In this document: positions 12,490 through 52,914 of the stretch, one piece after another
Layout of the letters: every line of letters begins with the position of its first letter
Position numbering within the stretch: position 1 is the stretch's first letter
DNA from: Sulfurimonas sp. C5
Lineage (GTDB): Bacteria; Campylobacterota; Campylobacteria; Campylobacterales; Sulfurimonadaceae
NCBI RefSeq assembly: GCF_029872055.1
Contig: NZ_JARXNQ010000004.1
Location: 62,001 to 126,000 of the forward strand
DNA: 64,000 nt
Reading direction: 5' to 3'
The notes under the pieces: generated by a model
Seen by the model: only the letters and a program-made list of their open reading frames with translations
Told to the model about the DNA's origin: nothing
Databases searched by the model: none
Position numbers and translations under genes: made by a program

Positions 12490-14583
12490 ATGTTGAATTT
12501 CAAAAACCCAAATTTTTATATTAATCGTGAACTTTCATGGTTACAATTCAATACAAGAGTTCTCAAACAGGCACAAGATACAACTTTACCATTACTTGAG
12601 CGTTTAAAGTTTCTTGCGATCTACGGAACTAATCTTGATGAATTTTATATGATCCGTGTAGCAGGACTTAAAAAACTTTTCTCGGCAGGGATTATTGTTT
12701 CAGGTGCAGATAGACTTACACCGCTGCAACAACTTCGTGAAATCAGACACTATCTGCATCAAGAGCAACAAGTTGTAGAACATTGTAGAACAGAGATACT
12801 AAAGAAGCTTGAACATGAAGGTATTTACGTTAAAAAATACAACGATTTAAGCAACCAGGAAAAACACAAAGTAAACATATACTTTAAAGAAAACATCTAC
12901 CCTGTAATTATTCCTATTGCTGTAGATGCGACACATCCGTTTCCACACTTAAACAACTTGAGCTTCGGTCTTATCGTTAAACTTAGAGATACAGACAATG
13001 AAGCAATTGAACGTTTTGGAATTGTACGTGTCCCTCGTGTTTTAGACAGATTTGTCCAAATCGGTGAAGGTACTTATGTGCCTATAGAAACTGCTGTTGC
13101 ACAACATATAGAAGATCTTTTTCCGGGTTATACACTCATTAAGTACGCATCATTCAGAGTAACGAGAAATGCCGACATCGAGATCGAAGAGGAAGAAGCG
13201 GATGACTTTATGGAGATCCTTGAAGAGGGATTAAAACTTCGTAGAAAAGGGGAAATGGTTCGTCTTGAAATGGGAAGTAATGCAGATGATGAAATCATTA
13301 ACTTTTTCAATCGCCATGCTAATGTCTACAAAGATGATATCTATAAATTCCATACTTCTTTAAATCTTTCGAGTTTATGGCAAATAGTTGGCAATAAAGA
13401 TTTTGCACATCTATTATCTCCATCATTTAAACCAAAGAATCTGCCGCCTTTAGATAGTAATGACAATATCTTTGCTATCTTGGACAAACAAGATATCATG
13501 ATGTACCATCCGTATGAAAGTTTCGAACCTATCGTAAAAATGATACAACAGGCTGCAAAAGATCCTGATGTTGTTTCGATCAAAATGACACTATACAGAT
13601 CAGGACAAAATTCTCCAATCGTAAAAGCATTGATGGATGCGAGTGAAAGCGGAAAACAGGTAACTGTTATGGTTGAACTGAAGGCTCGTTTTGACGAAGA
13701 GAACAACCTTATCTGGGCAAAAGCACTAGAAAAATCAGGAGCACACGTTATTTACGGAATTAAAGGCTTAAAAGTACACGCAAAAGCTACACTTATCACT
13801 CGTAGAATTAACGGTAAACTCAAACAGTATGCACATTTAGGTACTGGAAACTATAACCCGTCAACTTCAAAGATCTATACAGATATGAGTTACATGACAA
13901 GTAAAGACGAGATCACAAATGACCTTACTCGTTTTTTCCACTTTTTAACAGGATTTAGTAAAAAAGGGAAACTAAATGAGCTCTATATGGCACCGTCTCA
14001 AATCAAGCCGAAGATCTTATCACTCATTCACAATGAGACAAGACAAGGAGAAAATGGACGTATCATTGCGAAAATGAACTCTTTGGTTGATGACGACGTG
14101 ATCCGTGCGCTTTACAAAGCAAGTCAAGCGGGTGTAAAAGTTGATCTTATCATCCGCGGTATCTGTTGTTTAAAACCTGGAATAGAAGGTGTAAGTGAGA
14201 ATATCCGTGTTATCTCTATTTTAGGAAAATACTTAGAACATGCTCGTGCATATTACTTTAAAAACGATGCTTCTGAAGTATATATCTCTAGTGCAGACTG
14301 GATGCCGAGAAACTTAGTCAGACGTATTGAGCTTTTAACGGCTATTAAAGATGAAGAGTCTAAGAAAAAAATTATTCAACTGTTAAACCTTCAAATTTCA
14401 GACAATGTACTTGCACACGAACTCCAAAGTGACGGTACTTATGTAAAGGTAAAAGCTGATGATCGTTTAATAAACAATCATAAACTTTTAGAAGAGTATG
14501 TGAATAAAATTTCAAAAGTGACAAGAAAAGAATCATCTACAAATATTCATCAGTTAGTAGAGAGACTGTTTATAGAGAGTTAA
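12490..14583 (+). CDS. ppk1: polyphosphate kinase 1
   Basis: Reversibly polymerises the terminal phosphate of ATP into inorganic polyphosphate. It has 697 residues, usual length. The N-terminal domain begins with the family motif NRELSWLQFN. The autophosphorylated histidine is H430 in KVHAKATL, and the second conserved histidine is H584 in YLEHARAYYF. It has its own extended -10 promoter and is followed after one base by the gamma-carbonic-anhydrase-like gene, so the two are co-transcribed. Confidence 0.97.
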   Translation: MLNFKNPNFYINRELSWLQFNTRVLKQAQDTTLPLLERLKFLAIYGTNLDEFYMIRVAGLKKLFSAGIIVSGADRLTPLQQLREIRHYLHQEQQVVEHCRTEILKKLEHEGIYVKKYNDLSNQEKHKVNIYFKENIYPVIIPIAVDATHPFPHLNNLSFGLIVKLRDTDNEAIERFGIVRVPRVLDRFVQIGEGTYVPIETAVAQHIEDLFPGYTLIKYASFRVTRNADIEIEEEEADDFMEILEEGLKLRRKGEMVRLEMGSNADDEIINFFNRHANVYKDDIYKFHTSLNLSSLWQIVGNKDFAHLLSPSFKPKNLPPLDSNDNIFAILDKQDIMMYHPYESFEPIVKMIQQAAKDPDVVSIKMTLYRSGQNSPIVKALMDASESGKQVTVMVELKARFDEENNLIWAKALEKSGAHVIYGIKGLKVHAKATLITRRINGKLKQYAHLGTGNYNPSTSKIYTDMSYMTSKDEITNDLTRFFHFLTGFSKKGKLNELYMAPSQIKPKILSLIHNETRQGENGRIIAKMNSLVDDDVIRALYKASQAGVKVDLIIRGICCLKPGIEGVSENIRVISILGKYLEHARAYYFKNDASEVYISSADWMPRNLVRRIELLTAIKDEESKKKIIQLLNLQISDNVLAHELQSDGTYVKVKADDRLINNHKLLEEYVNKISKVTRKESSTNIHQLVERLFIES

Positions 14584-14584
14584 A

Positions 14585-15118
14585 ATGATACACAAATTTA
14601 AAAATTATGAACCAAAAATAGGTAAAGATACATGGGTAGCTCCTTCAGCTGACGTGATTGGAGATGTAGAGATTGGTGAAGATTGCTCTATATGGTTTGG
14701 GACGGTAATTAGAGGTGACGTTCATTATATTAAAATCGGGGACAGAACAAGTGTTCAGGACTGTTCAATGCTGCATGTTACACACCATAAAGGTGAAGAC
14801 AGACAAAAGCAAGGTGACGGAAACCCTACAATTATTGGTAATGATGTAACTATCGGTCACCGTGTAATGCTACACGGCTGTACGATCGAAGATGCATGCT
14901 TAATCGGTATGAGTGCAACTATTCTTGATAATGCTGTCATTGGAAAAGAGAGTATAGTTGGAGCGGGAAGTTTAGTTACTAAGGGTAAAAAATTTCCACC
15001 GAGAAGCCTCATTATGGGAAGTCCGGCAAAAGTAGTAAGGGAACTTACTGACGAAGAAGTCGCCGAACTCTACGCTTCTGCAAAAAGATACGTCTCTTTT
15101 AAAAACGAATATAATTAA
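14585..15118 (+). CDS. gamma-carbonic-anhydrase-like hexapeptide-repeat protein (YrdA/PaaY type)
   Basis: A 177-residue left-handed beta-helix protein of the gamma carbonic anhydrase family, normally a trimer with metal between subunits. Hexapeptide repeats run from about 15 to 145. The expected metal-ligand histidines are present in the segments MLHVTHH and GHRVMLHG, and the R and D of the family's IRGDV motif are at about 44-46. Such proteins are active carbonic anhydrases in some species and only bind cofactors in others, so activity is not certain. The ATG follows the ppk1 stop by one base. Confidence 0.88.
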   Translation: MIHKFKNYEPKIGKDTWVAPSADVIGDVEIGEDCSIWFGTVIRGDVHYIKIGDRTSVQDCSMLHVTHHKGEDRQKQGDGNPTIIGNDVTIGHRVMLHGCTIEDACLIGMSATILDNAVIGKESIVGAGSLVTKGKKFPPRSLIMGSPAKVVRELTDEEVAELYASAKRYVSFKNEYN

Positions 15119-15191
15119 TTTTTATCCACTTTTATATCTACATAAGTTTTCTTAAACTATCATACATATATCTCACTTAAAAGGAAACAGT

Positions 15192-15335
15192 ATGATAGAT
15201 AAGAAAAAAGTAAACAAATTCCTTAGAAAAGAATTGAAAGACCTACTCAAAAAAGAGTTCAAACAAGAGGCGAAAAAAAATATCAAAAGTTACAAGAAAA
15301 AAGAAAAGTCAGAAAAAAAAGCTAAGAAAAAATAA
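15192..15335 (+). CDS. small lysine-rich protein, 47 residues, function unknown
   Basis: Open frame from ATG 15192 to TAA 15333-15335, with AAAAGGA seven bases upstream as a good ribosome site. The product has 21 lysines in 47 residues, an amphipathic helical first half (KKVNKFLRKELKDLL) and a basic tail of KKKEKSEKKAKKK. It is strongly basic and probably binds nucleic acid, ribosomes or polyphosphate; the last is only suggested by the ppk1 neighbour two genes upstream. It ends 3 bases before a strong hairpin. I recognise no family. Confidence 0.6.
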   Translation: MIDKKKVNKFLRKELKDLLKKEFKQEAKKNIKSYKKKEKSEKKAKKK

Positions 15336-15338
15336 GAG

Positions 15339-15368
15339 AAGAGATTGGGAAGTATTATCCAATCTCTT
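15339..15368 (-). terminator. terminator hairpin between convergent genes
   Basis: A perfect 10-base-pair stem (AAGAGATTGG / CCAATCTCTT) with a 10-base loop. On the minus strand it is followed by CTCTTATTTTTT, so it can end argJ transcripts; on the plus strand it follows the 47-residue gene but has no good U-run. Confidence 0.7.
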
Positions 15369-15394
15369 ATAGATGTTAATAGGTAATAAACTGA

Positions 15395-16573
15395 TTATGT
15401 TCTATAGTCCGCGTTAATTTTTACGTATTCGTAACCAAGATCACATCCAAATGCCGTGAATTCTCCTGAACCGATACCTAAATCACATGAAATTGTAAAC
15501 TCTGGTTTTCTCATAATTTTGGCAGCTTGGATCTCCATCTCTGCATCAAAGTAAAGATTTCCTTTTTCATAAACGCAAATATCATCAAATGAGATCGTTA
15601 AAGTTTCCTCTTTTGCTTCAGCTCCACTAGCTCCTACAGTTGAAGCAATACGTCCCCAGTTTGGATCTTCACCGTAGAGTGCCGTTTTTACAAGAAGTGA
15701 ATTAGAAAGAGCTTTGGCAACCACTTCTGCTTCGTGATCGTTTTTTGCACCTGTAACTTTATAAGTTACAAGTTTTGTAGCACCCTCTCCGTCTTTTACC
15801 ATCTGTTTTGCCAAAAATTCCATAATCTGATGCAGTGTATCTTCAAATGCTTCCTCATCATACGCACCGCTTTTTGAGTTAGAAAGCAGCATTACAGTAT
15901 CGTTCGTAGAAGTATCACCGTCAACCGAAGCGGCATTAAATGTTGTCACTACTACACGATCTAATACTTTTTGCATTTTAGTAGATGACACATCTGCATC
16001 CGTTGTAATGAAACAAAGCATAGTAGCCATAGCTGGGTTAATCATCCCTGCACCTTTTGCCATAGCACCTATATGAAAACTACTTCCATCACTCAATGTC
16101 ACTTGAAATGCAATCTCTTTTTTGAAACTATCTGTAGTCATAATAGCCTGAGCAGCACTTGTTGGATTTTTTTGAGTAAGGTCAAAAAGTTTAATTCCGT
16201 TGATGAGCTTCTCTTTTGGAAGTCTTACTCCGATTACACCAGTTGAACTCATAACAGGATTCATAGCCTCATCAGGAAGATGTCCAAGTACTTCATCAAT
16301 ATCGTCAATTCCAGCTTCACCCGTCATTGCATTAGCATTTTTTGAATTTATAAGTACAAAGTTTGTTTTAAAATCACCCTTTGCTTTAAAATGTTTAATT
16401 GGGGCAGCAGCCATTTTATTTGTTGTAAATGCCGAAGCAATTTCACATAATGTGTCTGCATAAATAAACGCCATATCTTTAGCATCGTTTTTCTTTAATC
16501 CAGCACTAATTCCGTCTGCATAAAAACCATTAGCGGCACAAACTCCGCCCTCAATTTTTTCTAATTTATACAA
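15395..16573 (-). CDS. argJ: glutamate N-acetyltransferase / amino-acid acetyltransferase ArgJ
   Basis: Transfers the acetyl group from N-acetylornithine to glutamate in the cyclic arginine pathway. It has 392 residues. The self-cleavage site is seen as PAMATMLCF, with Thr184 the nucleophile of the beta chain, preceded by the KGAGMI motif. The start is TTG at 16573 with AAGGAG seven bases upstream. It overlaps the channel gene stop by 8 bases, so expression is coupled. Whether it is bifunctional (also using acetyl-CoA) cannot be read from sequence. Confidence 0.96.
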   Translation of the reverse strand: MYKLEKIEGGVCAANGFYADGISAGLKKNDAKDMAFIYADTLCEIASAFTTNKMAAAPIKHFKAKGDFKTNFVLINSKNANAMTGEAGIDDIDEVLGHLPDEAMNPVMSSTGVIGVRLPKEKLINGIKLFDLTQKNPTSAAQAIMTTDSFKKEIAFQVTLSDGSSFHIGAMAKGAGMINPAMATMLCFITTDADVSSTKMQKVLDRVVVTTFNAASVDGDTSTNDTVMLLSNSKSGAYDEEAFEDTLHQIMEFLAKQMVKDGEGATKLVTYKVTGAKNDHEAEVVAKALSNSLLVKTALYGEDPNWGRIASTVGASGAEAKEETLTISFDDICVYEKGNLYFDAEMEIQAAKIMRKPEFTISCDLGIGSGEFTAFGCDLGYEYVKINADYRT

Positions 16574-17696
16574 ATTTGAGCTCCTTCGGCTTCAATCTTT
16601 TTCTTAATAAATCTCTGGTAATTTTTATACCAGCCTGTGTTCCAATTACTAAAAGCTTACATTCGCTTGTAACTAAAACATCTCCTTTAGGCATTGCAAC
16701 AAATTTTCCGTCTTTTTTTGTAATCCCAACTACAGAAGTATTTGCGATCTCTCTAATATGTGTCTCTTTTAATTTTTTTAACACCGCCCATGAATATTTA
16801 GGTACCAAAATCTCCTGCATATCGATCGGATTGTCCGTTTTGTATAAGAACTCTTCTAAAAGGTTTTCCATATCCGGACGTGCTGCCATTGCAGAAACCC
16901 TTTGAGCTGTAAGTTTCGTAGGACTTACAACCGTATCTGATCCCAGTTTTTTCAATTTTTCTACATCACTCATAGATTCAGCAGCAGAGATCACATAATA
17001 AGGTCTTGGTAGAAAGTGCTCTTTTTCAAAAAGTCTTACCGAAGCGATAAGTGCAATATTATCCGCAATTGAATCAGAAAGAGTAATCAGCCCTTTTGCA
17101 GATGCCAAATGCGCCTTTAACATTGATAATTCCGCATGAGGCTCGGCCTGTAAGAAATGGGGATATTTGTGTTCTACTGCCCATTCATGGATCTGCGGTC
17201 TTGGATCAATTACAACAAAAGGTATGTGGTTTTTACGTAATTGTTTCGTTACTTCAATCGTATAATCATTATGATAACACACAACAAAATGTTTTTTTAA
17301 TCTTGCGATTTTATACAACATTCTTCGCTCCTTGATAATAGCAACAATGTGCCCCTTGTTTAATTCTGAAACTAAAATACCGATCGCACTAGAGAAAACT
17401 GCGAAACCGGCAATGATTAGATTAATCGTAAATATTCTACCAGCATCAGATATTGGACGTATCTCTCCAAAACCTACAGTAGTAAACGTAATAGCAGTTT
17501 GATAGATGGCATCAATAATCGGAAAATTATCAATTAGAACATAACCTGTTGTTCCAATCAACATCACTATAACTGTTAAAATAAGGGGTAGACGAAATGC
17601 TTTAAGGTGGGGGTAAACTTCAGGAAGAAGCTTTGGATCGGGTTTGGGAGTAATCTCCCAATTTAGAAATGTGCGAATCCTTTCTAAAAGATTCAA
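16566..17696 (-). CDS. two-helix potassium channel with RCK/TrkA domains, altered filter
   Basis: A 376-residue Kch/MthK-like protein: membrane helix at about 36-55, pore loop with selectivity filter TVGFGE at 73-78, second helix at about 88-110, then TrkA-N and TrkA-C domains. The filter differs from the usual TVGYGD by Tyr to Phe and Asp to Glu. The first strand of the TrkA-N domain reads VVCYHNDYTI, lacking the GxGxxG nucleotide-binding glycines, so NAD binding is doubtful. The start is TTG at 17696 with AGGA eight bases upstream. It lies between rpmB and argJ in one operon. K+ flux is the likely function; gating ligand unknown. Confidence 0.85.
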   Translation of the reverse strand: MNLLERIRTFLNWEITPKPDPKLLPEVYPHLKAFRLPLILTVIVMLIGTTGYVLIDNFPIIDAIYQTAITFTTVGFGEIRPISDAGRIFTINLIIAGFAVFSSAIGILVSELNKGHIVAIIKERRMLYKIARLKKHFVVCYHNDYTIEVTKQLRKNHIPFVVIDPRPQIHEWAVEHKYPHFLQAEPHAELSMLKAHLASAKGLITLSDSIADNIALIASVRLFEKEHFLPRPYYVISAAESMSDVEKLKKLGSDTVVSPTKLTAQRVSAMAARPDMENLLEEFLYKTDNPIDMQEILVPKYSWAVLKKLKETHIREIANTSVVGITKKDGKFVAMPKGDVLVTSECKLLVIGTQAGIKITRDLLRKRLKPKELKFV

Positions 17697-46050: not shown

Positions 46051-48207
46051 ATGAAAGCTATTGCTACCATTATTGTAATACTTCTAACTGCTTTGTTTAT
46101 AATATTGAGTTCATCTATTTTTAACAATGAAGAAACGCTTCTTCCCACCGTACAAGAAACCCTTACAGATAATACTATACATTTAAAACTTGGGCATAAT
46201 ACCCCTGTGGACAGTGCTTTGCATGAAGCTTCAGTAAAATTTGCAAATGAAGTTAAGAGAAAAACAAAAGGTGAAGTAATCATCGATATTTTTCCTGCAC
46301 AACAACTGGGTAATGACCATCAAATGGTTGAGATGGCAAGAAACGGTGATATTGACATCATTCTAACACCAACTGCAAAAATGAGTGTAGCAGTACCATC
46401 TGTCCAATATGCCGATCTCCCGTTTTATTTCCCTTCACGTGAAGATGTTTATGCAATGCTTGACGGTGAACCTGGAGAGATGATTCTTCATAACCTTAAA
46501 TCGATCGGTCTTATCGGTGTGACATTTTGGGAAAATGGGTTTAAACATTTCACTGCAAATGAGCCTTTGCTCTCTCCAAAAGATTTTCAAGACAAAAAAT
46601 TCCGCGTTATGAAAAGCCGTATAATTATGGAACAGTTCAGAGCATTCGGAGCAGAACCTGTTGCGATCGATTTTTATTCTACAAAACAAGCGCTTCACGA
46701 CAAGGTTGTAGATGGTCAGGAGAACCCTTTAGTTGCCATTGTAAGTATGGGCTTTTATAAAGAACAATCTGATCTTACTCTAAGTGAGCATGCTTACTTG
46801 GGATATGTATTATCTTTTAGTGAAAAAACATTTTCTAAGTTACCCCAGAACATACAAATGACCCTTATAGAAACAGCTAAAGAGATCACTCCTTGGGAAA
46901 GAGACGAGACACATAAACGTGAAGAAAAACTCTTGGAAACGATTAAACATTCCGGTGTGCAAATACATACTATCAGTGAAAAAGATCGTCAAGAATTTGC
47001 AAAAAGAACTGCCTATATTCCTCAAAAATATGAAGCGGTAATCGGTTCTAATATTATTTCAAAAACCAAGGAACTCCTCTATAACAAATATGGTGCAAAC
47101 TTTAAAAATGACGATCATATTTTAATCGGTATAGATACAGACATCTCTTCCGACACAAAAGTTGCCGGCTTAGCTATAAAAAGAGGTGCAGAGATTGCGG
47201 TTTCTGAGATAAATGCCAAAGGCGGTGTTCTTGGAAAACCTTTGGAAATCATTGTAAAAGATCACAGAGCTCTTGCAAGCAAAGGGATTCAAAATATTGA
47301 AGAGTTTTCACACAATAAACATCTTGTAGCGATTATCGGTGGTGTGCACGGTGCTGTTATCTCAGCAGAGCTTGACACAATTGAGCAACTCAAAATACCT
47401 TTTTTCATTCCTTGGGCTGCAACAGCTGGACTTGTAAACAACGGCTATAAAGATAACTATATTTTTCGTGTATCTGCAAATGATAATATAGCTGCAAATT
47501 TTATTGCCGGTTATACTCTAAAAAAATATAAAAAACCTGCAATAATTGTTGAAAACTCTGTCTGGGGTAGAAATAATTTAAAACTTATGACACAATATTG
47601 TCAAGAGCACAATATCAAAAATATTACAGAAATTGTATTTAACCGCGGACAAAATAACTTTAAAAAAGAGATCTCTCAGATCCTAGATTCACAAGCCGAC
47701 GCTTTAATAATGGTAGCGAATCCTTTTGAAGCCTCAAAAATTCTTCAAGAACTAAAAGCGCGTAAAAAAAGTTTGCCTGTTATTTCCCATTGGGGTATTA
47801 CAAGCGGAAACTTTTTCAAAGAGAATGAAAATCTTTTAAAAGGGTTAAACTTAAATGTTTTTCAAACATTCTCTTTCAATAACCAGTTAAACACAAAAGC
47901 CAAACATCTTCTTGATAGCTACAAAAACAAATATCTGCTGAGTAAAAAATCTCCCGTTCAGGCATCTGTCGGCATTGCTCAAGCTTATGACATAGTATAT
48001 TTATTAAAATTAGCAATCGAAAAAGCAGGTACTACAGACAAAACAAAGGTGAAACAAGCACTTGAAAACTTACCAAAATATGAAGGTGCAGTGAAAACAT
48101 ATGCACCTGCCTTTACCGAAGCAAATCATGATGCTTTAGACGGTAGGGATTATTACATGGCAAAATACAATTCAAATGGTATTTTAGTACCGGTAAAAAA
48201 CAAGTAA
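46051..48207 (+). CDS. membrane-anchored fusion of TRAP-type (DctP) and ABC-type (LivJ-like) solute-binding domains
   Basis: A 718-residue protein with an N-terminal hydrophobic segment at about 3-21 and no clear cleavage site, so probably an anchored periplasmic protein. Residues about 43-340 are a complete DctP domain: the ligand-contacting Arg is R185 in KFRVMKSR and DGQENPL is at 221-227. Residues about 357-710 are a type I periplasmic-binding domain of the branched-chain amino-acid class (AEIAVSEINAKGGVLGKPLE). No TRAP or ABC permease gene is near. The next gene, 15 bases on, is a membrane GGDEF-EAL protein. Likely a two-ligand sensor rather than a transporter part; ligands unknown. Confidence 0.85.
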   Translation: MKAIATIIVILLTALFIILSSSIFNNEETLLPTVQETLTDNTIHLKLGHNTPVDSALHEASVKFANEVKRKTKGEVIIDIFPAQQLGNDHQMVEMARNGDIDIILTPTAKMSVAVPSVQYADLPFYFPSREDVYAMLDGEPGEMILHNLKSIGLIGVTFWENGFKHFTANEPLLSPKDFQDKKFRVMKSRIIMEQFRAFGAEPVAIDFYSTKQALHDKVVDGQENPLVAIVSMGFYKEQSDLTLSEHAYLGYVLSFSEKTFSKLPQNIQMTLIETAKEITPWERDETHKREEKLLETIKHSGVQIHTISEKDRQEFAKRTAYIPQKYEAVIGSNIISKTKELLYNKYGANFKNDDHILIGIDTDISSDTKVAGLAIKRGAEIAVSEINAKGGVLGKPLEIIVKDHRALASKGIQNIEEFSHNKHLVAIIGGVHGAVISAELDTIEQLKIPFFIPWAATAGLVNNGYKDNYIFRVSANDNIAANFIAGYTLKKYKKPAIIVENSVWGRNNLKLMTQYCQEHNIKNITEIVFNRGQNNFKKEISQILDSQADALIMVANPFEASKILQELKARKKSLPVISHWGITSGNFFKENENLLKGLNLNVFQTFSFNNQLNTKAKHLLDSYKNKYLLSKKSPVQASVGIAQAYDIVYLLKLAIEKAGTTDKTKVKQALENLPKYEGAVKTYAPAFTEANHDALDGRDYYMAKYNSNGILVPVKNK

Positions 48208-48222
48208 AAAGAGTTTATTAAT

Positions 48223-50484
48223 ATGGGATTTTTGCAAAAATTAGCTTTTAAAAGTATCCGGGAAAGAGTCATCATCTTAATCTCTACTCTGATTGCTCTT
48301 GCTATTTTTCTCATTACACTTATTGTTTTATTTATTGTAAATAACAACATGAGTAACCAGATGGATACTCTTTTAAAAACAAGAGCACACTCTATTTATG
48401 AAAAAATTGATCAAAGGATCGGTTATCTAATAGACAACTCTGTTCTTTTAACTAAAAATGAGTTAATTATAAACTCCCTTATAGACAAAAACGGTAGAAA
48501 AACTTACCTGCCTCCTTTGGTAGAAAATTTTATGAAAGGAAAAGATGTTCTATATTTAAATATTGTTGACTTTGACGGCAGAGCTATTTTCCAAACACAA
48601 GAGAACATCCCTCTCTATAATGAATCTTCCAGACTCAGAGCTGCACTTGCTCTTGGAAAAGTATCGTACTTTATTGAAGATAACGACGATAAACTAGTCA
48701 TTATAGCACCTATTGAATACTACAATACTACTCAAGGTGCAGCTATTGTCGTTTTTAAAATAGATGAGATAGCTAACCGGGTTTTGACAAACAATACAGA
48801 CATATATATCAAACTCTTCCATAATGAGCAAAATATCTTTTCACGCAATTTTGATGAAGATATAACATATCACTCCTCTGTACAGGATACCCATCAAGAC
48901 TCACTATTAAAACAACTTGGAGTCGTTTTACAAATCGGGGTACCTACAAATATTTATTTGGCTCCGCTTAAAGAGATATTATTAAAACTCATATTAGTCG
49001 GTTTGGTGTTTACGGTTGTAGGTATCATCTTATCCAATCTCTTGGCAGACACTATTACACAACCAATACTTACACTTGTAAACAGAGTTAAAAATGTTGA
49101 AAATAAAAGTGAAGTTTTCTGTAGCCCTCTTGGAACAAACGATGAACTTGAAGAACTTGCAAAAGCTTTTGACGAACGTTCACTCTTACTGCAACACCAA
49201 GCTCAATATGATTCTTTAACCGACTTACCAAACAGACTTTTGTTTCTTGACAGACTTGAACAAAGTATTAAAAACTCTGTAAGAACTAAAGAAAAATTCG
49301 CAGTTTTATTTATAGATTTGGATCACTTTAAAGAGATAAATGACTCTTTCGGGCACCACTTTGGAGACAAACTTTTAATGATCGTAGGGGAGTATCTTCA
49401 ACGTGCTGTAAGAGTAAGCGATTCTGTTGCCCGTATGGGAGGGGATGAATTTACTATTTTATTAAGTAACTTAGATAACCAGCATGATATTCTCAGTATA
49501 CTACAAAAAATAATGAATATATTCAAAGAGCCTTTTATTATTTCCCACCATCAATTCTATATAACATGTAGTATCGGTATTACACTTTTTCCTCTTCACG
49601 GAAAAACATCAGAAGAACTACTGAAAAACTCCGATGCAGCTATGTATAAAGCTAAAGAAAAAGGGAGAAATACTTATCAGTTTTATACAAATGATATGAC
49701 TGAAAAGGCTTTTGAACGTATTACACTGGAGACACAACTTAGACAAGCCCTGGTAAATCAAGAGTTTGAAGTGTACTACCAGCCACAGGTAGATATCCCT
49801 AGCAGTAAAATTATCGGTATGGAAGCACTTGTTAGATGGAATCATCCAAAGATGGGACTGGTTCCTCCGTTTAAATTCATACCGCTGGCTGAAGATACAG
49901 GACTAATTGTAGAAATAGACAGACAAGTGATGTTAGACTCCATGAAGCAGTTTCAGCAATGGATTAATGACTGTTTTGATGTAGGTACTCTCTCAATTAA
50001 TCTCTCTATTGTTCAATTGAATCAGGAAGATTTTATAGAGTTTGTAAAAAAAGCTATTAACGTTTCGAAAATATCTACTGACAATCTTATGTTTGAAGTA
50101 ACAGAGACACAGGTCATGAAAAATCCTGAACATGCAATTATTATGTTACAGAAACTAAAGGATCTTGGCATTAGACTTGCAATTGATGATTTTGGGACTG
50201 GACACTCATCTCTTGCATATATCAAGAGGCTCCCTATAGATAAGCTCAAAATTGATCAGTCTTTTATTATGGATGCTTTAGTCGATAAAGATGATCAAGA
50301 GCTTACAAAAGCAATTATTTCAATTGGTAAAAACTTAAATCTTGAAGTTATTGCAGAGGGGGTTGAGACCCAACAAATTGCAGAGTTTTTAGTTAGTAAC
50401 GGATGTACTGAAGCACAAGGTTATTTTTACTACAAACCTATAAACAGTGAGACTTTAACAGAGATATTAAAGTCTCAACACTAA
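48223..50484 (+). CDS. membrane GGDEF-EAL cyclic-di-GMP enzyme, partner of the binding-protein fusion
   Basis: A 753-residue protein. Membrane segments at about 16-40 and 252-276 enclose a periplasmic region of about 210 residues that resembles a double-Cache-like sensor only loosely. A HAMP linker at about 277-330 leads to GGDEF at 406-410 with I-site RVSD just before it, and EAL at 534-536 with EVTETQ, DDFGTGHSS and AEGVET. Both activities look intact. Spacing of 15 bases from the binding-protein fusion implies one transcript and, by inference, periplasmic contact between the two proteins. Confidence 0.88.
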   Translation: MGFLQKLAFKSIRERVIILISTLIALAIFLITLIVLFIVNNNMSNQMDTLLKTRAHSIYEKIDQRIGYLIDNSVLLTKNELIINSLIDKNGRKTYLPPLVENFMKGKDVLYLNIVDFDGRAIFQTQENIPLYNESSRLRAALALGKVSYFIEDNDDKLVIIAPIEYYNTTQGAAIVVFKIDEIANRVLTNNTDIYIKLFHNEQNIFSRNFDEDITYHSSVQDTHQDSLLKQLGVVLQIGVPTNIYLAPLKEILLKLILVGLVFTVVGIILSNLLADTITQPILTLVNRVKNVENKSEVFCSPLGTNDELEELAKAFDERSLLLQHQAQYDSLTDLPNRLLFLDRLEQSIKNSVRTKEKFAVLFIDLDHFKEINDSFGHHFGDKLLMIVGEYLQRAVRVSDSVARMGGDEFTILLSNLDNQHDILSILQKIMNIFKEPFIISHHQFYITCSIGITLFPLHGKTSEELLKNSDAAMYKAKEKGRNTYQFYTNDMTEKAFERITLETQLRQALVNQEFEVYYQPQVDIPSSKIIGMEALVRWNHPKMGLVPPFKFIPLAEDTGLIVEIDRQVMLDSMKQFQQWINDCFDVGTLSINLSIVQLNQEDFIEFVKKAINVSKISTDNLMFEVTETQVMKNPEHAIIMLQKLKDLGIRLAIDDFGTGHSSLAYIKRLPIDKLKIDQSFIMDALVDKDDQELTKAIISIGKNLNLEVIAEGVETQQIAEFLVSNGCTEAQGYFYYKPINSETLTEILKSQH

Positions 50485-50499
50485 AAAGTCATTACACTC

Positions 50500-51714
50500 T
50501 TACGCTATATAGATACCAAAAACCTTATCTATATCTTTTGTAATAATTTTGTCTATCTTATTATTTGCCACCATCTCTGTCATAATCTTCATCGTTGTCG
50601 TATGAGAAACACTTTCTCTATATGGTCTATGCTCTGTTAAAGCTTGATAGATATCTAAACATCCCATCAATCGTGATTCAAAACAGAGTTCATCAGCACT
50701 GAGACCATAGGGATATCCACTCCCATCAAGTTTTTCATGATGTTGATATGCCCACTCTTCTATCTCTTCAAAAGCATCCAACTTATGTAGAATTCTATGG
50801 GTAAAATAAGTGTGTGATTGTATAGTATTTATCTCTTCCGGATCTAAAAAAGTTTCTTTTTCAAGTATTTTATTTGAAACTGCAAGCTTTCCAAGATCAT
50901 GTAATGATGCAGCAATTTTCAGCTTAGTAACTTTTTCTTGGTCAAACTTATAATATATAGCCATTGTTTCTATTTTTTCAATTAAACCTGCCGTATGTCT
51001 GGCTGTAAACTTTGATTTTGTATCAATGATTTTTGAAAAGACTTTAGAAACTTGAAAGATACCATTCCAGCCTATATCTACAGTAAACTCTTCTACATAA
51101 TTACATATAGCTTCTACTATCATAAAATCCGTTACATCAAGCCAAAAAGCTGTTGTTCTGGCAAGCTGAAAAAAGGCTTCTGCTATTATAGGATCAAAAA
51201 GTATCCCTTTATTTTCTTCAACATATTTGTATATGTCATGTTTATTTTTTAAACTACTGTCTGTTAATGTGTATGCCGAATCTAAAAGATCTGCAAACGC
51301 AATTATTTGTGACATTAAAGGAATTTCATCACCTTTTTTGCCAAAAAAACCACTACCGTCATAATGTTCGTGATGATATAAAATTATATTTTTTGGATTT
51401 GTTAAAAAAGGAAAATCACGAACATTCTTTTCACCGATCACACAATGCTCTTTGAGTTGTTCTAATTTATAAAACTCTTCTTCAACAAGGTTTGTCTTCA
51501 GTGCTGCTTCTGTTAACCCGTTATCATGCATTACAGCCAACGAAACCAAGTCAAAAGATTCTTTTGAATCCAAACCTAATAACCTTGCCAAACGCAGCGA
51601 TATATATGCAACTCGTTTAGAATGAAAGTTATGGACACCCAATAACTCTTTTTCAACAAGGTCCAAAGCAAAACTTATGCTGATTAAAAATGTATTTAAA
51701 TTAAAATTTTTCAT
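50500..51714 (-). CDS. tandem HD-GYP protein, predicted cyclic-di-GMP phosphodiesterase
   Basis: A 404-residue soluble protein made of two HD-GYP-type domains. The first (about 20-160) has H31, HD at 63-64 but HDNGL instead of HDxGK, and HHEHYDGSGFF at 114-124, with GYP lost. The second (about 235-400) is canonical: HDLGK at 272-276 and HHEKLDGSGYP at 325-335. The second is likely the enzyme, hydrolysing cyclic-di-GMP, and the first regulatory. It faces the GGDEF-EAL gene, ends 16 bases apart, and has no membrane segment or receiver domain. Confidence 0.87.
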   Translation of the reverse strand: MKNFNLNTFLISISFALDLVEKELLGVHNFHSKRVAYISLRLARLLGLDSKESFDLVSLAVMHDNGLTEAALKTNLVEEEFYKLEQLKEHCVIGEKNVRDFPFLTNPKNIILYHHEHYDGSGFFGKKGDEIPLMSQIIAFADLLDSAYTLTDSSLKNKHDIYKYVEENKGILFDPIIAEAFFQLARTTAFWLDVTDFMIVEAICNYVEEFTVDIGWNGIFQVSKVFSKIIDTKSKFTARHTAGLIEKIETMAIYYKFDQEKVTKLKIAASLHDLGKLAVSNKILEKETFLDPEEINTIQSHTYFTHRILHKLDAFEEIEEWAYQHHEKLDGSGYPYGLSADELCFESRLMGCLDIYQALTEHRPYRESVSHTTTMKIMTEMVANNKIDKIITKDIDKVFGIYIA

Positions 51715-51819
51715 CTAAATAATATATCATACAAAGTCTTAAGAATCTACTAGATGAAAAATTACATTTTTGTGAGAGAAGTTTATTGCTTTATTTTGAG
51801 ATATATTTGTGATGTGTTT

Positions 51820-52908
51820 TTATTTGTAACGAACTCTGTTACGACCCGTTTGTTTTGCTTCATATAAAGCTTCATCTGCTCTTCTAATAATAGAACCGAC
51901 CGTATCATTACGATGATTTATTGTAGCGCCTATACTAAGTGTTTTATATCCCACAATTGGGAATTCGTATTGTGATATTCTCAAGCGTATTTTTTCAGCG
52001 AGTTCAAAAATCTCTGCTTCATCAGCTTCCAAACAGATTATTAAAAATTCTTCACCACCGAATCTAAAAATATAATCACTTGCTCTGATATTTTCACTTA
52101 ATATTTTAGATACCCCTATCAGTATCTCATCACCAACCAAATGTCCGTATGTATCATTAACATTTTTAAAGTGGTCGATATCTAAAAGCAGTACACCGAT
52201 ATTTGACTTATATCTTTCTGCTCTCCTTAATTCCTGTACTAAAATTGAATCCAGCTCTACACGGTTGTGTACACCTGTTAATTTATCCATTGTAGCTAGC
52301 TGGTGGAGTTCTAACTCTTTTTCAAAGCTATTCTTTTTAGAAAGATGTAGTAGGATTCCTCCCACTATTCCAAGTAGTAAGCTTGCCAACATCCACATAG
52401 TGTTAAGCAGAAAACCTGTGTTTTGATCTTCAAAAGCTATTAAAGGATATATTTCCCCTACAGCAAAAACGAAAAGCGAAGCTACGATTGCTTGATTTAA
52501 ACGTAATCCTGAAATCGTTAGATTCCAAAAAATCATCAGATATAACTCTGTTTGATAGCTGCTGTAAGATTCCATATGTGAAAAAATATAAGCATGAATG
52601 GAAGATGTAAGAACAGGTGCTAAAAACAATAAAGTTTCTAAAATTTTCTGATCTACTTTTTTGTATGCTAAATATGAAAGCATAAATGCATAACTAGGTA
52701 CAACAATAAGTTGAATAATAATGAGAAAGTTATGTATATCAGAAGTAAAAATAAAGAAGTTTATACTTCCCATCATTACATAAATTAAACCTGTAATTGC
52801 CAAGACATATTTTATCTGATTTAACAAATGTGCATATTGCCAAACACTAAACTTATAATTAAGTTCTTTTTCTTTATATCCGAGGAATAACTTTTTTACT
52901 TCTTTCAT
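51820..52908 (-). CDS. membrane diguanylate cyclase (GGDEF)
   Basis: A 362-residue protein with about six N-terminal membrane segments (about 25-195) and a C-terminal GGDEF domain at about 205-362. The catalytic motif is GGEEF, with I-site RASD ending five residues before it. The membrane block may sense a ligand in the bilayer. The ATG at 52908 is chosen over an in-frame TTG three bases earlier. There is no Shine-Dalgarno sequence, and a TATAAT ends six bases upstream. Confidence 0.9.
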   Translation of the reverse strand: MKEVKKLFLGYKEKELNYKFSVWQYAHLLNQIKYVLAITGLIYVMMGSINFFIFTSDIHNFLIIIQLIVVPSYAFMLSYLAYKKVDQKILETLLFLAPVLTSSIHAYIFSHMESYSSYQTELYLMIFWNLTISGLRLNQAIVASLFVFAVGEIYPLIAFEDQNTGFLLNTMWMLASLLLGIVGGILLHLSKKNSFEKELELHQLATMDKLTGVHNRVELDSILVQELRRAERYKSNIGVLLLDIDHFKNVNDTYGHLVGDEILIGVSKILSENIRASDYIFRFGGEEFLIICLEADEAEIFELAEKIRLRISQYEFPIVGYKTLSIGATINHRNDTVGSIIRRADEALYEAKQTGRNRVRYK

Positions 52909-52914
52909 CAAAGT

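Follow-up and report, generated by a model that had tools for sequence, protein, structure and literature searches.

What is the role of a protein that joins two solute-binding domains of different families and whose gene lies directly before a gene for a cyclic di-GMP (c-di-GMP) enzyme, rather than beside permease genes? This question is raised by two adjacent genes in a 64,000-bp stretch of the Sulfurimonas sp. C5 genome (contig NZ_JARXNQ010000004.1, positions 62,001 to 126,000; hereafter the window), the first coding for a membrane-anchored fusion of a DctP and a Peripla_BP_6 domain, and the second for a membrane receptor with GGDEF and EAL domains. The genome is 2.06 Mb long and 99.97% complete, and its nearest homologues are Sulfurimonas-type Campylobacterota. 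As described below, the pair looks like a widespread sensor which passes the signal of an outside molecule to c-di-GMP.

The fusion protein and the adjoining receptor

The fusion gene (46,051–48,207, forward strand) starts with ATG and is intact over 718 codons, with zero internal stops. Its product consists of an N-terminal transmembrane (TM) signal anchor with a disordered linker of about 20 aa (aa 1–44; 46,051–46,182), a DctP domain of the TRAP solute-binding type (aa 47–326; 46,189–47,028) and a type I, LivJ-like Peripla_BP_6 domain (aa 358–710; 47,122–48,180). Both Pfam matches lie far above the cut-off, with E-values of 1e-76 for DctP and 7e-42 for Peripla_BP_6 (PF13458), and the DctP half also passes the PF03480 / TIGR00787 cut-off. 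The domain composition given in an earlier sequence-only reading of the window is thus borne out, as are the positions of R185 and of the DGQENPL motif (aa 221–227) named in it.

The structure model of the fusion (mean pLDDT 93, pTM 0.89) contains two complete two-lobed binding-protein folds, which match solved solute-binding proteins with Z-scores of 39.5 for the DctP half and 43.9 for the Peripla_BP_6 half. Both Pfam families were matched by all 59 full-length fusion sequences tested, which rules out an assembly artefact. Invariant residues are present in both halves across these sequences, those of the DctP half being R185, N225, W160, N162 and K165. A hydrophobic helix at the N-terminus and the absence of a lipobox are common to the fusion and its homologues, and in the model the helix (aa 2–23) is followed by a disordered stretch (aa 22–39). 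Lipoprotein anchoring was considered and rejected, a lipobox being absent from 57 of the 59 main-clade sequences and a lipobox-like motif being present in just two. Two divergent DctP–Peripla_BP_6 fusions (L169, 5,909–8,053, and L170, 5,071–7,164; L numbers denote loci) possess N-termini which look like those of lipoproteins instead of TM anchors.

The receptor gene (48,223–50,484, forward strand) starts 15 bases past the fusion stop codon and codes for a 753-aa protein with TM1, a periplasmic double-Cache domain (about aa 40–246), TM2, a HAMP-like linker, a GGDEF domain (aa 327–483; 49,201–49,671) and an EAL domain (aa 505–739; 49,735–50,439). The spacing and both catalytic domains agree with the sequence-only reading, while the HAMP domain which it also named gives no Pfam match here and a weak one in 12 of 64 homologues. 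The sensor region was recognized mainly from its predicted structure: the Pfam dCache_1 match scores 31.5 bits, below the curated cut-off of 45 (weak matches are found in 59 of the 64 sequences), and the AlphaFold2 model (pLDDT 87) has, flanked by a TM helix on each side, a long helix and a pair of PAS-like subdomains, which is the architecture of a double Cache. The model matches solved double-Cache domains with Z-scores of 15–17 (about 17 for KinD and DctB), although many Cache domains score alike, and such a shared fold should not be read as proof of function or kinship. The C-terminal part of 5ERE, a solved 540-residue ‘extracellular ligand binding receptor’, also matches the receptor Cache domain (Z 14.3); the suspicion that 5ERE is itself a Peripla_BP_6–Cache fusion was not confirmed, as it was outside the 60 best PDB matches of the Peripla_BP_6 profile. 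The GGDEF motif with its RVSD inhibitory site and the EAL, INLS, DDFGTG and AEGVE motifs of the EAL domain are all intact, so both cyclase and phosphodiesterase activities are possible for this receptor, judging from its motifs.

Conservation of the pair and exchange of its output

Fusion homologues were searched for in about 85,000 species genomes using four orthologues and two peptide patterns, both taken solely from the DctP half, with the best 80 matches kept, which yielded about 70 full-length fusions. Downstream DNA was available for 72 loci, including the window and after removal of one duplicate contig; four additional fusions end at contig ends. In all 72 loci, the gene after the fusion carries the conserved receptor module, i.e. 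the first approximately 320 residues homologous to aa 1–326 of the window receptor (48,223–49,200; TM1, double Cache, TM2 and HAMP-like segment), and in 25 of them the two genes overlap by 4 bases. The hosts belong to Campylobacterota, Gamma- and Betaproteobacteria, Magnetococcales, SAR324 and delta-type metagenome-assembled genomes (MAGs), the groups represented besides Campylobacterota, Magnetococcales and SAR324 being Oceanospirillaceae, Piscirickettsiaceae, Methylococcaceae, Zoogloeaceae/Azonexaceae, Comamonadaceae and Desulfobulbaceae or delta-type MAGs. Such a pairing across phyla rules out chance adjacency.

The same picture was obtained when the search was started from the receptor domain with no selection on the fusion. 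All five strong matches in 298 Campylobacterial genomes adjoin a fusion, as do all seven strong matches read by neighbourhood in 274 genomes of the class containing Dechloromonas (in addition to Dechloromonas itself, which was already known), giving 12 of 12 in total. The pairing is well supported. The pair is rare, being present in only four of the 298 Campylobacterial genomes sampled. One Sulfuricurvum genome possesses two pairs (L182 and L183) with receptors of 743 and 1,021 aa, the latter containing extra sequence before GGDEF. Reading frames appear to be broken by mutation or sequencing error in the receptors of L047 and L083 and in the fusion of L085. The plasmid collection contained no homologues spanning 80% of the fusion and none of the receptor domain.

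The output of the receptor is far less uniform: 27 of the 72 receptors end in GGDEF-EAL, 44 in a histidine kinase (in most cases a hybrid kinase carrying REC and Hpt, with or without PAS/GAF), and one is truncated. The neighbour expected from the sequence-only reading is thus conserved as a receptor but not as a GGDEF-EAL enzyme, and since most homologues use a histidine kinase, the conserved part is the periplasmic double-Cache domain. On a quick, unrooted tree of the fusions the output label switches at least twice, and the gammaproteobacterial GGDEF-EAL loci cluster with those of Campylobacterota, a grouping that points to transfer of fusion and receptor genes together.

Pairwise distances among 42 kinase-type loci show that the periplasmic domain of the receptor diverges together with both the DctP half (r = 0.94) and the Peripla_BP_6 half (r = 0.91) of the fusion, and much less so with its own kinase domain (r = 0.58), a contrast which a fixed input pair with an exchanged output would predict. 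The partial correlations with the receptor are 0.69 for the DctP half and 0.50 for the Peripla_BP_6 half.

Many kinase-type loci are connected with c-di-GMP in another way: in 23 of the 44 a GGDEF, EAL or HD-GYP gene is located within 2.5 kb, and the density of such genes is 1.32 per 10 kb within this distance versus 0.11–0.12 beyond it, an approximately 11-fold difference. Several of those checked code for REC-HD-GYP or REC-GAF-GGDEF response regulators. With GGDEF-EAL as the direct output in some loci and a c-di-GMP gene beside the kinase in others, both routes lead recurrently to c-di-GMP. In the window itself, an HD-GYP-type gene with two HD stretches, convergent with the pair, and a GGDEF gene are situated directly beyond it (50,500–52,911, reverse strand); both are missing at this place in the sister genomes L016 and L017, which have downstream a gene for a Phosphonate-bd (PhnD-like) protein overlapping a dCache_3-PAS-GGDEF gene (14,225–17,370 and 13,926–17,071, respectively), a second pair of a solute-binding protein and a cyclase.

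More distant relatives of the receptor were also found. Four divergent receptors (L171–L174; E-values from 1e-22 to 6e-14, with matches mostly in the periplasmic part) adjoin a protein of about 390 aa with Peripla_BP_6 only, and the three with readable outputs end in HK-REC, PAS-GGDEF-EAL and HK-REC-Hpt, HK being a histidine kinase. Among the neighbourhoods read, none of the divergent receptors adjoins a DctP-only protein. Most simply, the Peripla_BP_6 protein would be the older partner, to whose N-terminus DctP was added later, although the tree is unrooted. Anchored Peripla_BP_6 proteins also occur in the Sulfurimonas-type genomes L010, L012, L013 and L015; in the two whose neighbour was read, L010 and L012, the gene overlaps one coding for another type of N-terminal sensor, which in L012 also matches HisKA weakly.

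A probable binding-protein-dependent receptor and its rivals

Taken together, these data make it probable that the two genes form one binding-protein-dependent receptor system, in which the fusion signals to the neighbouring double-Cache receptor. With its N-terminal helix holding it at the inner membrane, the fusion would present two Venus-flytrap modules, a TRAP-type DctP and a LivJ-type Peripla_BP_6, in the periplasm. Closure of one or both modules upon ligand binding might alter the docking of the fusion on the double-Cache domain, and this movement, relayed through TM2 and the HAMP-like linker, would tip the balance between the diguanylate cyclase (GGDEF) and the phosphodiesterase (EAL). 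Other lineages have this input module joined to histidine kinases, about half of them located beside a gene for a c-di-GMP enzyme.

Several points weigh against this explanation. Correlations of pairwise distances are inflated by shared descent, catalytic motifs are changed in some of the GGDEF-EAL homologues, and the receptor might recognize a separate ligand through its Cache domain. The clues to the docking half also conflict, with the single-domain relatives keeping Peripla_BP_6 only and the receptor tracking DctP slightly better.

As for the ligands, Arg and Asn residues of TRAP proteins bind carboxylates, as in SiaP, and R185 and N225 of the fusion are presumably the carboxylate-binding Arg and Asn of the TRAP pocket. 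Since both are kept, an organic acid is a likely ligand of the DctP half. The top structural match of the Peripla_BP_6 half is 4q6w, a Bordetella protein solved with 3-hydroxybenzoate (tied with 4mpt, the same protein), followed by leucine-binding proteins. In a single alignment, W581 takes the place of the acidic Asp of the LivJ-type protein 4gnr, and Trp is found there in 49 of the 59 sequences. The amino acid or urea-type ligand suggested by the sequence-only reading is therefore weakened for this half, and an amino acid seems, tentatively, less likely.

A more far-reaching version of the proposed receptor system is a mobile two-input receptor, in which two unrelated solutes, recognized by solute-binding proteins of two families, would be combined by AND, OR or ratio logic at a single double-Cache receptor, while the output domain, either GGDEF-EAL or a phosphorelay to HD-GYP/GGDEF, is swapped and c-di-GMP is a frequent end point. 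This version is plausible without being probable, and its two-ligand logic is offered as a hypothesis.

A rival explanation is an ordinary one-ligand binding-protein-dependent receptor, in which either DctP or Peripla_BP_6 senses alone and the other half is a spacer or docking platform. The existence of Peripla_BP_6-only proteins beside homologous receptors indicates that two halves are not required, the acidic pocket residue of LivJ appears not to be kept, and conservation is much stronger in the DctP half than in the Peripla_BP_6 half (mean distance 0.48 vs 0.91), which could mean that one half alone keeps a fixed ligand; yet both halves retain complete two-lobed folds modelled with high confidence, hold invariant residues and track the divergence of the receptor. 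We regard this possibility as rather unlikely.

It appears more doubtful still that the signal is bound by the Cache domain of the receptor itself, with the fusion acting just as a modulator, for instance by delivering or sequestering the ligand. The fold does match the directly ligand-binding domains of KinD and DctB, but LuxQ, which has the same fold, acts via LuxP, and no receptor lacking a solute-binding partner was found among the matches with a neighbourhood read.

The presence of two domains from transport families also brings permeases into question. No window ORF was matched by phmmer with DctQ, DctM or LivH/M queries, in accordance with the sequence-only reading. DctQ/DctM genes are absent from the surroundings of the fusion at all 72 loci (on average about 7–8 kb on each side), in contrast to the control, where DctM permease genes are present at nine of nine DctP-only loci, and a LivHM pair occurs at L072 only, about 8 kb away. 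On the point set beforehand as the refuting test of the sensor pairing, the homologues thus turned out not to lie beside TRAP or ABC permeases. The LivHM-type permease family PF02653 has zero matches across the whole host genome (12 of 14 control genomes are positive), whose sole DctQM pair is located on another contig (L184, 5,743–7,508; G000 contig 1), distant from both DctP genes, and a second, free-standing DctP gene lies elsewhere on that contig. It is very improbable, therefore, that the fusion is a transport protein for remote TRAP and/or ABC permeases with a c-di-GMP neighbour by chance, as the one unlinked DctQM pair could be served by the free DctP, and the receptor adjoins the fusion at every locus.

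Comparison with known systems

The signals driving most c-di-GMP enzymes are a long-standing open question, and according to a 2022 review members of the periplasmic-binding-protein clan are prevalent in such proteins, with just one family of this clan studied in c-di-GMP networks (PMC8846402). The sensor of the conserved pair is a separate protein, amenable to purification and screening, whose two pockets belong to different classes, and the fusion–receptor loci provide natural examples of exchanged outputs. Should both pockets signal, this would be a bacterial receptor integrating two solutes before the membrane. Solute-binding proteins that activate kinases, chemoreceptors and c-di-GMP enzymes are already known (PMC9602780). 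In the literature searched, no paper naming DctP, Peripla_BP_6 and GGDEF together and no description of a receptor dependent on two fused solute-binding domains of different families was found, although an earlier mention is possible.

The flytraps of BvgS and EvgS belong to one family and are situated within the kinase chain, and those of the fusion represent two families in a separate protein. These kinases resemble the present system in that two Venus-flytrap domains feed one receptor (PMC5829827). The LuxP–LuxQ system is similar in that a solute-binding protein docks on a hybrid kinase, at a periplasmic domain of the double PAS/Cache type. The receptor model matches LuxQ as solved together with LuxP (2hj9; Z 14.0, with an rmsd of 3.3 over 178 residues), with a fold common to many Cache domains; unlike the fusion, LuxP consists of just one domain, from a different solute-binding protein family, and the output of LuxQ is a kinase. 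ArtI differs from the fusion as a separate, single binding protein that is not fused. In Salmonella, both ArtI and the dCache_1 c-di-GMP enzyme STM1987 are needed for L-arginine sensing (PMC8846402), which makes this pair comparable to the one described here.

The arrangement known from NspS–MbaA, a conserved solute-binding protein gene with an adjoining membrane GGDEF-EAL gene, is found at 27 of the 72 loci, and the receptor pairing in all of them. NspS is a polyamine-binding protein with a single solute-binding domain. In Vibrio cholerae, this periplasmic protein controls the adjoining membrane GGDEF-EAL enzyme MbaA, encoded by an overlapping gene, and its ligand state decides between cyclase and phosphodiesterase activity (PMC8967002). 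Unlike NspS, the protein described here contains two domains of two other families, fused and membrane-tethered, and the module of its receptor also occurs joined to histidine kinases.

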